From a virus, in the IMG/VR virus record IMGVR_UViG_3300007735_000689, positions 1 to 37,204 of that record: a stretch of 37,204 nt of DNA, one strand, 5' to 3'. Below, piece by piece: positions 11,770-15,200 of the stretch. Within the stretch, counting starts at the first letter, position 1, and every line of letters starts with the position of its first letter. A model generated the notes under the pieces. It was not told where the DNA came from. It made no database searches and worked only from the letters and a program-made list of their open reading frames with translations. The translations under genes were made by a program, and so were the position numbers.

Positions 11770-11776
11770 TTTTCCT

Positions 11777-12666: not shown

Positions 12667-12674
12667 TTTCTTCT

Positions 12675-12684
12675 CCTGGCGGTT
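12675..12684 (-). repeat. AACCGCCAGG motif, copy 5 (merges with the ribosome site)
   Basis: Exact copy, continuing into AGGAG, the ribosome site of the first leftward gene (ATG at 12666). Confidence 0.6.
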
Positions 12685-12687
12685 TAG

Positions 12688-12703
12688 GTAAGCGGTTGCT
12701 TAC
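12688..12703 (-). promoter_or_regulatory. 5' leader hairpin GTAAGC-AACC-GCTTAC
   Basis: A perfect 6-bp stem with an AACC loop lies at the start of the leftward transcript, three bases before the AACCGCCAGG motif. The rightward transcript has the matching element at 13009-13026 with different stem bases but the same GC-AACC-GC core. It probably protects the 5' end of the mRNA or controls initiation. Confidence 0.55.
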
Positions 12704-12710
12704 AAGGACC

Positions 12711-12740: not shown

Positions 12741-13008
12741 CATTTGTGAAAATGTTTCTAAAAGATCTTATTTACTAAAACATCTGTTCTGGCCGGTGGT
12801 ACATAAGTTAGCCAGAACCACCAGGATCCACCAGGACGCGGTTCCATTTGTGGTGAATATAAATATACTCGGATCGATATGTCCGTGGTTCTGGGACAAA
12901 CCTGGCCGCTCGATCTGGACTAAACGGACTCCAAAAGGTTCCAAAAGGTTCCCATAAGATCTTATTCAATAGAGTGTACAAATACCGGTGGACAGTATTG
13001 AATGTACC
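12741..13008. promoter_or_regulatory. Divergent control region with several repeats
   Basis: No convincing gene is present in this stretch; a minus-strand reading frame over 12808-13107 is rejected. It contains the inverted repeat GTTCTGGC...GCCAGAAC (12786-12793 and 12811-12818), the direct repeat CCACCAGGA twice near 12819-12835, the tandem 10-mer CCAAAAGGTT (12931-12940 and 12941-12950), and the inverted repeat TTCAATA...TATTGAA (12965-12971 and 12996-13002). This density of sites between divergent operons suggests a genetic switch. A replication origin is also possible. I see no strong plus-strand promoter: TATTGA at 12996 is the best -10 candidate. Confidence 0.55.
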
Positions 13009-13026
13009 TATGAGCAACCGCTCATA
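13009..13026 (+). promoter_or_regulatory. 5' leader hairpin TATGAGC-AACC-GCTCATA
   Basis: A perfect 7-bp stem with an AACC loop, two bases before the AACCGCCAGG motif and 22 bases before the ATG of the 61-residue gene. It is the mirror element of the leftward hairpin at 12688-12703. The stems differ in sequence but both pair. Confidence 0.6.
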
Positions 13027-13028
13027 CC

Positions 13029-13038
13029 AACCGCCAGG
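13029..13038 (+). repeat. AACCGCCAGG motif, copy 6 (merges with the ribosome site)
   Basis: Exact copy, continuing into AGGAGG, the ribosome site of the gene starting at 13048. A near copy (AATCGCCAGG, 13298-13307) precedes the DUF932 gene. Confidence 0.6.
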
Positions 13039-13047
13039 AGGATCCAA

Positions 13048-13233
13048 ATGGGAATCGCAATAGGAACTACAATCACAGTTACATTTGATGCACAACAAAT
13101 TGCACAACTTGATTGCTTACTTCAAAATGTAGAAACATTGTCTGAAATGTTTGAAAGTTCAGAACGCGCATTTGTTAATAGTACACGTGTTATAAATGTT
13201 TATCGTGCACTTCACGCTGCAGGATACCGCTAA
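13048..13233 (+). CDS. Unknown 61-residue protein
   Basis: This small helical protein (GIAIGTTITVTFDAQQIAQLDCLLQNVETLSEMFE...) has no recognised motif. The middle contains a coiled-coil-like stretch with Leu and Glu. The ATG at 13048 is chosen because AGGAGG lies seven bases before it; the reading frame open to 12988 lacks a ribosome site. Its stop codon TAA (13231-13233) touches the first base of the hammerhead ribozyme, so termination and ribozyme folding are likely to affect each other. Confidence 0.72.
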   Translation: MGIAIGTTITVTFDAQQIAQLDCLLQNVETLSEMFESSERAFVNSTRVINVYRALHAAGYR

Positions 13234-13288
13234 GGACGAAACACTCCGCAAGGAGTGTCCAGTGTTAAATGACACTGCTGATGAGTCC
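13234..13288 (+). ncRNA. Type II hammerhead ribozyme
   Basis: All core elements are present in order. GGAC (13234-13237, stem II 5' side) is followed by GAAA (13238-13241). Stem III ACACTCC pairs with GGAGTGT (13241-13247 with 13252-13258) around a GCAA loop. The cleavage nucleotide C is 13259. Stem I CAGTG (13260-13264) pairs with CACTG (13273-13277), extendable by T13265-A13272. Then come CTGATGA (13278-13284) and GTCC (13285-13288), which pairs back with GGAC. The chain opens at stem II, which defines type II. The predicted self-cleavage is between 13259 and 13260 and would split the message between the 61-residue gene and the DUF932 gene. Cleavage has not been tested; stem II is only four pairs. 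Confidence 0.88.
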
Positions 13289-13315
13289 ATCAGAATAAAT
13301 CGCCAGGAGGAAAAA

Positions 13316-14284: not shown

Positions 14285-14299
14285 GACAAAAAGAAAAGA

Positions 14300-14330
14300 G
14301 CCCCTGCCGAAAGGCAGGGGCTTCTTTTTT
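14300..14330. terminator. Strong intrinsic terminator, possibly bidirectional
   Basis: GCCCCTGCC (14300-14308) pairs perfectly with GGCAGGGGC (14313-14321) around a GAAA loop, followed on the plus strand by TTCTTTTTT. On the minus strand the stem is followed by TCTTTTCTTTTTG. It lies between the convergent DUF932 gene and the end of the late operon, so it probably ends both transcripts. Confidence 0.92.
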
Positions 14331-14337
14331 GCTTCTT

Positions 14338-14934
14338 TTAATCTAGAAATGCAATGTGATTCTTTCCAGCTTTTGTTTGTAAGGCTATTTGGACTTGACC
14401 ACCACTATTGATATCGAATCTAATTGCTGTTTTAACCGCTTGTTCTAAGATCTCTATTGCTTCTTCATATTCATCTGCTTCATCAATTCCTAGCGCGTGA
14501 GCAGCTCCAAGAGCAAGTTTGGCGCCTGTTCCTGTGGTGTAAACCTTGTCTTTTGTCTTCTCTAATCCATAGACTTCATCAATAAAGTACAAAGTTCCAT
14601 TAACGGCAACTATGAAATCATTTTCAAACGATGATGGATAGCCTTCAGACTTAATGTCATAACCTGAAATTCCAAAGGTTTTACGTAGATTTGGCACAAA
14701 CTGAGTCACCATAAATCTATCTAGATTTTTAGATCTTGGAGGCGCTGGTGGATTAAAAGCATGTTGGATCAGATTCATGCCTCGGACTAAACCTGCAGCA
14801 GAAACTAAGTATTTACCATTTTCAGCAATTTTGCCCATAGGAGAACAATCAGCTCTCATGTCATAACCAGTTGTTTGCGTATCTGCAGCAATGATGCAAT
14901 AGTCATCATGTTGGTATGCAATGAGTGTTGTCAT
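14338..14934 (-). CDS. Proteasome/HslV-like Ntn hydrolase
   Basis: This 198-residue protein starts MTTLIAYQHDDYCIIAADTQTTGY. If the initiator Met is removed, Thr1 becomes the nucleophile and Asp falls at position 17 (AAD), as in proteasome beta subunits and HslV. A lysine lies at about 34 (GKIAENG), near the usual Lys33. The later TGTGAKLALGAAHAL matches the family's GSGxxxA helix region. It could form a protease ring that degrades host or phage proteins, or be a relative with another substrate; no partner ATPase is visible. It is the last gene of the late operon, with GGAGG before the ATG and a TAATG overlap with DUF6378. Confidence 0.82.
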   Translation of the reverse strand: MTTLIAYQHDDYCIIAADTQTTGYDMRADCSPMGKIAENGKYLVSAAGLVRGMNLIQHAFNPPAPPRSKNLDRFMVTQFVPNLRKTFGISGYDIKSEGYPSSFENDFIVAVNGTLYFIDEVYGLEKTKDKVYTTGTGAKLALGAAHALGIDEADEYEEAIEILEQAVKTAIRFDINSGGQVQIALQTKAGKNHIAFLD

Positions 14935-15200
14935 TATTCCTCCGTAGCCAGTTCTCCGCCAATAGCCATATAAGCTGCACCATCTACCCAACCATCTAAT
15001 TTCTCAGGTGATTGGACTAATCGAGCAACTTTGACTTGATTCATACATAATGCAACTTGCCAAGGTTCTACAATAATGCCTAAAACTACACTCCAAAGCT
15101 TTGCAATGCGGTCGTGGTTCTCTTGTGGAGTTCCATAATCTGCTTGTCTATCGTTATAAATTAAATGTGTTGCTTCGTCTAAGATTTCTTTGCGATTCAT
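14934..15200 (-). CDS. DUF6378-like phage protein
   Basis: This 88-residue protein carries the family pattern ILDEATHLIYNDRQADYGTPQENHDRIAKLWSVVLG followed by MNQVKVARLV and DGWVDGAAYMAIGGELA. Such proteins are widespread in phages and may be regulators or MazG-like relatives; the helix pairs and the YG-x-P-x-E-NH motif could bind a nucleotide. The ATG at 15200 overlaps the metallophosphoesterase stop (TAATG). Confidence 0.72.
   Translation of the reverse strand: MNRKEILDEATHLIYNDRQADYGTPQENHDRIAKLWSVVLGIIVEPWQVALCMNQVKVARLVQSPEKLDGWVDGAAYMAIGGELATEE

Follow-up and report, generated by a model that had tools for sequence, protein, structure and literature searches.

Introduction

Cleavage by hammerhead ribozymes leaves a 2′,3′-cyclic phosphate and a 5′-OH, a chemistry established for the family. 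Intercistronic processing of phage transcripts is known from the RNase III sites of the T7 early region, where the cuts leave hairpin-ended phage mRNAs. Type II hammerheads are very common in bacteria and often flank genes in prophages, and a proposed role for such ribozymes is the division of long phage transcripts into gene-sized mRNAs (Perreault et al. 2011, PMC3088659). Cleavage was demonstrated for three tandem arrangements in vitro and for one of the three in E. coli as well, and in many type II hammerheads loop I was found to pair with the 3′ tail (PMC3088659). The same study describes HHphage of the haloviruses HF1 and HF2, a hammerhead that precedes a phage gene by 13 nt, for which the mapped transcript 5′ end lies no more than 3 nucleotides from the cleavage site (PMC3088659).

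The element analysed here occupies positions 13234–13288 (+) of the window, the whole 37,204-nt stretch of a virus record from IMG/VR (IMGVR_UViG_3300007735_000689). It shares with the type II hammerheads of RF02276 and Perreault et al. the core, the open-stem-II permutation and the sort of phage gene context, but has a 4-bp stem II and a short loop I, is without the loop I–tail pseudoknot, carries a tail complementary to its own 3′ strand, and scores under the Rfam cut-off. Like HHphage it lies shortly upstream of a phage gene; HHphage, however, is a core variant from an archaeal virus, sits upstream of a helicase gene and leads a polycistronic transcript. Intercistronic cutting and hairpin-ended mRNAs would be common to this element and the T7 RNase III sites, whereas the predicted self-cleaving RNA would produce 5′-OH and cyclic phosphate ends and involve no host enzyme. 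Type II hammerheads are a known class, and a general function in processing has already been proposed for them (Perreault et al. 2011); the self-complementary tail is the part that appears to be new. In open-licence PMC papers, no prior description of a tail pairing with the catalytic strand was found, though one may exist elsewhere, and that literature held no paper linking DUF932 with hammerheads and none on hammerheads in actinobacteriophages. The findings bear on the role of bacterial and phage hammerheads, a question standing since 2011.

Identification of the hammerhead

A preliminary description of this DNA, made from the letters alone, had proposed a type II hammerhead with a full core and three stems, and all of the elements it claimed were found letter for letter in their places (Table 1). 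The RNA reads GGAC-GAA-ACACUCC-GCAA-GGAGUGU-C-CAGUGU-UAAAUG-ACACUG-CUGAUGA-GUCC. It contains the conserved core GAAA...UH...CUGANGA, with the G10.1–C11.1 and A15.1–U16.1 pairs, in a three-stem topology with stems I and III closed and stem II open. The minimum free energy (MFE) structure of 13230–13292 was exactly the hammerhead secondary structure (−22.8 kcal/mol, z −3.9, 0/200 shuffles as good). In an E-value-threshold Rfam search, RF02276 Hammerhead_II aligned end to end over 13234–13299 at 29.2 bits, with an E-value of 3.7 × 10−4 in 301 nt and of 1.1 × 10−5 in the whole 37,204-bp record. By its sequence, 13234–13288 is a complete type II hammerhead, predicted to cleave after C13259.

Table 1. 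Features of the transcription unit, in positions of the window
Feature	Position	Strand	Remarks
Upstream 61-aa ORF	13048..13233	+	UAA stop 13231-13233 abuts ribozyme
Stem II 5′ strand GGAC	13234..13237	+	Pairs with GUCC 13285-13288
GAAA (G12, A13, A14, A15.1)	13238..13241	+	Core GAA 13238-13240; A13241 pairs with U13258
Stem III hairpin, 7 bp, GCAA loop	13241..13258	+	Strands 13241-13247 / 13252-13258
Predicted cleavage site, C13259 (C17) / C13260	13259..13260	+	Position from RF02276 alignment
Stem I hairpin CAGUGU-UAAAUG-ACACUG	13260..13277	+	Strands 13260-13265 / 13272-13277
Catalytic core strand CUGAUGA	13278..13284	+	
Stem II 3′ strand GUCC	13285..13288	+	Partner 13234-13237
AUCAG tail, exact complement of core CUGAU	13289..13293	+	Conserved in DUF932 loci
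Competing hairpin CUGAUG-AGUC-CAUCAG, 6 bp	13278..13293	+	Predicted MFE; tail enrichment; switch analysis
CGCCAGGAGG leader with Shine-Dalgarno of DUF932 gene	13301..13310	+	
DUF932 / TIGR03299 phage-plasmid-like protein, 322 aa	13316..14284	+	Family matches
Intrinsic terminator-like hairpin, end of transcription unit	14298..14323	+	Terminator-like on both strands

The covariance search that the preliminary description had suggested thus returned its expected family, though 29.2 bits is under the RF02276 gathering score of 37, and an Rfam search at gathering thresholds was empty. The missed cut-off appears to reflect the RF02276 model and not a defining biochemical feature of hammerheads. A strict scanner required CGAAA, at least 4 bp in stem III, a U followed by any base but G, at least 3 bp in stem I, CUGAUGAG, and at least 3 bp in stem II. 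It matched the window once, and 300 dinucleotide-shuffled versions of the window not at all. When run over 4.2 Mb of fetched DNA, it reported 530 type II hammerheads (438 distinct) in the forward sequence, a number that gives no density for phages generally, as the loci were taken by hammerhead patterns or homology. It reported none in the reversed sequence, which indicates that it is specific. A chance match was rejected on both comparisons, and the earlier judgement that core and stems were very unlikely to coincide by accident is borne out by the shuffled windows.

Transcription unit and phage

The + strand unit is short, consisting of the 61-aa ORF, the ribozyme, the DUF932/TIGR03299 gene and the terminator-like hairpin. 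The preliminary description placed the element correctly against the stop of the 61-residue gene, but the DUF932 start follows the last ribozyme base by 27 bases, not 28. No match to the 61-aa ORF was found in Pfam, PHROG or NCBIfam, and in related contigs it is swapped for other genes with the ribozyme retained. The DUF932 protein matched PF06067 (E 1.8 × 10−42), PHROG 1221 (E 4 × 10−63) and TIGR03299 (E 4 × 10−46), while blastn of the DUF932 region against cultured phages gave no match. The strong hairpin beyond this gene sits between it and a converging gene at 14338–14991.

The presence of terminase, HK97-like capsid and tail genes marks the virus as a tailed phage. Its host is probably an actinobacterium, since the terminase is nearest to those of Pontimonas phage phiPsal1 (47.7%) and Streptomyces phages.

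Conservation with the DUF932 gene

Loci with DUF932 genes were collected independently, by protein similarity, and form the sole set from which unbiased stem covariation could be obtained. The ribozyme was present in every locus reaching far enough upstream, the exceptions being contig-edge fragments. A 31-nt exact pattern matched 26 IMG/VR contigs, in all of them 5′ of the same gene, with differing upstream genes. Since the ribozyme is kept before DUF932 while the upstream genes change, it is part of the DUF932 leader and not of the upstream gene. At 60–64% protein identity, four of the six stem I pairs were changed on both sides and 100% of cells remained paired, against 20–46% when the partner was slid by 1–3 columns. 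The compensatory changes in related phages that the preliminary description had proposed to look for were therefore found in stem I; stems II and III were invariant in the DUF932 homologues and offered none.

The core residues were intact and invariant in homologues down to 60% protein identity, and this makes it very improbable that the element is a catalytically dead relic or a plain structured leader, as its score under the Rfam cut-off might suggest. The AUCAG tail was kept in all ribozyme-bearing DUF932 homologue loci. In one of these (L166), ribozyme and tail were 100% identical to those of the window, with a DUF932 coding sequence 70.5% identical.

A role at the DNA level, with RNA cutting incidental, could also be considered. 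The inverted repeat CTGATG-AGTC-CATCAG would then be the site of a regulator, or the element a recombination module through which the DUF932 gene acquires new upstream neighbours. Upstream genes do switch at the ribozyme boundary while ribozyme and DUF932 stay joined, and loci with 30% divergence in their coding sequences have the identical element. The compensatory changes, however, preserve the RNA pairing of stem I, the competing hairpin is found in two registers, the second following the stem II sequence (see below), a pattern for which a fixed operator would not account, and the architecture is common to unrelated phages with different genes. We regard a DNA-level role as highly unlikely. 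The evidence supports the predicted cleavage at 13259/13260, which would separate the 61-residue gene from DUF932 on their common message, as put forward in the preliminary description, in that the Rfam E-value, the core identity, the stem I compensation and the single short, terminator-ended transcription unit are all consistent with it.

Type II hammerheads in phage contigs

Pattern scans of IMG/VR fed the class sample, and the class counts are lower bounds. Upstream of these hammerheads, the stop codon of a frame of at least 40 codons mostly ended −1 to +6 nt from the first ribozyme base, with peaks of 102 at −1, where UAG shares the G, and 73 at 0. Downstream, 401 of 414 hammerheads had a Shine-Dalgarno sequence and an ORF within 90 nt, compared with 34% of random positions. 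Type II hammerheads of phage contigs are thus common between a stop codon and the next Shine-Dalgarno sequence, and hundreds are placed exactly there. The preliminary description had called type II the rarer form, which does not hold given this abundance and the "very common in bacteria" of PMC3088659.

A single locus had up to nine type II hammerheads. Four phage contigs (L114, L286, L182 and L454) each carried 7–9 distinct ones, and in L114 all tail kinds occurred side by side. The downstream genes mostly encoded unrelated small proteins (295 clusters among 356), and the same ribozyme architecture was present in unrelated phages with different genes. DUF932 was the commonest downstream family (largest cluster 10; 5/77 scanned members), and DUF932 genes of several unrelated lineages (L406, L368, L072, L463 and others) repeatedly follow a type II hammerhead.

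Cultured phages were among the carriers, and they are named here as systems in which 5′-OH ends could be mapped. The Streptomyces phages Rooney (L410/L416), Wentworth (L473), Yara (L474) and Spernnie (L475) had several type II hammerheads between annotated genes. In Rooney and Wentworth, the leader containing the Shine-Dalgarno sequence directly follows stem II and could pair with GUCC. In the Pelagibacter phages HTVC031P and HTVC168P (Autographiviridae), a type II hammerhead precedes the RNA polymerase gene within the early region, a parallel with the early region of T7. These pelagiphage hammerheads (L471 1301–1361; L472 1226–1287) have a GAGCU/AGUUC tail hairpin.

In 15 loci, Rfam reported 12 RF02276 matches, compared with 63 hammerheads found by the scanner. 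Most members with a 4-bp stem II were also under the Rfam cut-off, and the RF02276 alignment models a two-pair stem II. This suggests that the pseudoknotted form dominates the RF02276 model, which would explain both the sub-threshold score of the present element and the ratio of 12 to 63. The class falls into two subclasses, one pseudoknotted and one with a 4-bp stem II, the latter largely missed by Rfam.

Pairing between loop I and the tail

Pairing of the tail with loop I was compared with that of swapped tails. In the subclass with a 3-bp stem II, used as positive control, it occurred in 86% against 26% of swapped cases, reproducing the pseudoknot of Perreault et al. Among hammerheads with an AUCAG tail, the values were 11.5% and 11.1%, and among the other 4-bp members 7.5% and 6.6%. 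The loop I–tail pairing of at least 4 bp that marks the Perreault pseudoknot is absent from the window, where only 2 bp are possible. The loop I pseudoknot was rejected as the reason for AUCAG, as pairing stayed at the null level despite a working positive control, and the known pseudoknot explains neither of the two tail registers described below.

AUCAG might nonetheless join the active fold without any competition, by forming a pseudoknot with loop I or some non-canonical tertiary contact. Many type II tails do pair with loop I (PMC3088659), and the position directly past stem II is where the loop I contact forms. Besides the pairing frequencies above and the 2-bp limit in the window, however, AUCAG tolerates offsets of 0, +1 and −2 and is constant while loop I varies. 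Such a role in the active fold appears improbable, although a contact of non-Watson-Crick type may exist.

A tail complementary to the catalytic strand

The competing hairpin uses the last C of stem II together with AUCAG against CUGAUG. As the tail complements the catalytic strand, this hairpin cannot coexist with the hammerhead core and stem II. Prediction of sequential folding gave the hammerhead as the MFE structure for 3′ ends at 13288–13292 and the tail hairpin from 13294 on; the latter was also the predicted MFE structure of the full (uncut) leader and of the 3′ product. The predicted energies of the two folds before cleavage, −23.0 and −25.6, differ by only 2.6 kcal/mol with tertiary stabilisation uncounted, since RNAfold omits hammerhead tertiary contacts, and do not decide which fold wins at that stage. 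In its predicted fold, the 3′ product did not have its Shine-Dalgarno sequence sequestered by the tail hairpin. The preliminary description ended at 13288 and missed both the tail and the great abundance of such ribozymes.

The tail complementarity is non-random. In an early set of 116 hammerheads, AUCAG occurred within the first 25 nt past stem II in 27, and once in the next 25 nt. Among 362 hammerheads, 60 had AUCAG, and adding the tail dropped their predicted stem II probability from 0.95 to 0.06. The MFE structure switched upon adding the tail in 93% of AUCAG members, compared with about 25% (25.2%) for shuffled tails and 27.8% for other members. Because the rate of the non-AUCAG members approximates that of shuffled tails, complementarity of the tail as a general property of all type II hammerheads was rejected. 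IMG/VR scans found at least 120 contigs with an AUCAG tail, some of them DUF932 relatives, against two with the permuted tail ACATG, a control that includes ATG and may be depleted for that reason. AUCAG was observed at offsets 0, +1 and −2, variation that pairing permits.

In the full sample, 112 of the 438 distinct ribozymes had AUCAG; these 112 comprised 110 different cores and 97 different stem I sequences. So many distinct cores make it unlikely that AUCAG goes back to shared ancestry within a single phage group, and its co-occurrence with other tail kinds in 20 loci argues against such an origin as well. A search of GTDB species genomes with the AUCAG-tailed pattern returned only three contigs. 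The tail is not essential to the class, as 261 of the 438 hammerheads had neither tail register nor the 3-bp pseudoknot form.

A second tail register

Hammerheads without AUCAG showed a different form of complementarity. In 36 cases, the tail 4–6 nt after stem II pairs with GAGxy, which belongs to the stem II 3′ strand, against 13.1 ± 2.7 for swapped tails (maximum 23 of 1000), with other offsets at the null level; the offset of 4–6 was picked after inspecting the list, so the corresponding p-value is optimistic. With the offset unrestricted, 45 cases were found against 24.0 ± 4.0 (0 of 500). Outside the commonest stem II sequence, the register occurred 17 times against 6.0 ± 2.0, which indicates that the tail covaries with the stem II sequence. 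The pairs observed were GAGUC with GACUC or GACUU, GAGGU with ACCUC or AUCUC, GAGAC with GUCUU, and GAGCU with AGCUC or AGUUC, the GAGCU type being that of the pelagiphages. A first, loose covariation test had given weak signals (z 1.7–4.4), and exact 4-mer counts per class were noisy.

Many phage type II hammerheads would seem to be bistable switches, in which a tail complementary to the core (CAUCAG) or to stem II (x′y′CUC) competes with the active fold and the cutting of polycistronic phage mRNA is either rendered irreversible through strand displacement or ribosome-gated at the adjoining stop codon. We hold this to be slightly better than an even bet. The many 4-bp members whose tail is complementary to their own catalytic strand lead to a testable model of one-way or ribosome-gated cutting.

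Proposed mechanism

The most probable reading, at roughly 0.68, is that the element is an active type II hammerhead serving as a protein-independent intercistronic processing site, with a tail that makes cutting one-way. What computation shows in favour of this reading is the motif itself, conserved with compensatory changes and located between stop codon and Shine-Dalgarno sequence, and a non-random complementarity of the tail. The ribozyme would fold cotranscriptionally and cut the short bicistronic mRNA between C13259 and C13260. The 61-aa message would then end in the stem III hairpin, and the DUF932 message would start with a 5′-OH and the stem I hairpin. Both types of end are expected to slow 5′-monophosphate-dependent or 3′-exonuclease decay.

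After cutting, AUCAG would pair with CUGAU(G) and pull the catalytic strand out of the complex, as the 3′ product can form a 6-bp hairpin and stem II is then only a 4-bp intermolecular duplex. Capture by the tail would make cleavage one-way, with no re-ligation and with release of the products, and RNA that escaped cutting would be parked by the tail in an inactive fold. Using self-cleavage, Mahen et al. (2010, PMC2817708) showed sequential folding of mRNA structures and rapid exchange of adjacent ones in vivo, which makes an exchange between tail hairpin and hammerhead plausible. Should folding of the tail outpace cutting by the ribozyme, the effect of the tail would be mainly inhibitory, and a 4-bp intermolecular stem II may leave unaided, which weakens the need for a ratchet. 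If the one-way model is true, a natural self-displacing ribozyme would be a ready part for RNA engineering.

The main rival to this ratchet is a ribosome-gated off-switch, in which the tail is coupled to translation. A ribosome terminating on the upstream gene would cover GGACGAAAC, and AUCAG would engage the freed 3′ strand, leaving the mRNA uncut; cutting would then occur only while the upstream gene is untranslated. In most cases the stop codon does abut or overlap the first ribozyme base (the peaks at −1 and 0 above), and the uncut leader has the tail hairpin as its predicted MFE structure. Tight spacing, however, may just reflect compact phage genomes, and the anatomy of the off-switch is compatible with the ratchet too. 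The off-switch is considered unlikely, at perhaps one chance in four. The ratchet is favoured because stem II is intermolecular after cleavage and the tail hairpin should then win. Cleavage itself, the stabilisation of both messages and the direction of the tail effect, as a ratchet and not an off-switch, are what we infer.

Other sequence features near the locus

A 37-nt inverted repeat (76% complementary), at 12673–12709 and 13004–13040, flanks a divergent intergenic region, so that the leaders of both divergent transcripts would resemble each other and contain CGCCAGGAGG or CGCCAGGAGA. The 10-mer of those leaders also precedes the DUF932 gene (13301) and occurs again at 11774 (−). Within the divergent intergenic region, AAGATCTTATT(T/C)A occurs twice, at 12762–12774 and 12956–12968, 194 bp apart, and this pair is a possible phage promoter or operator.
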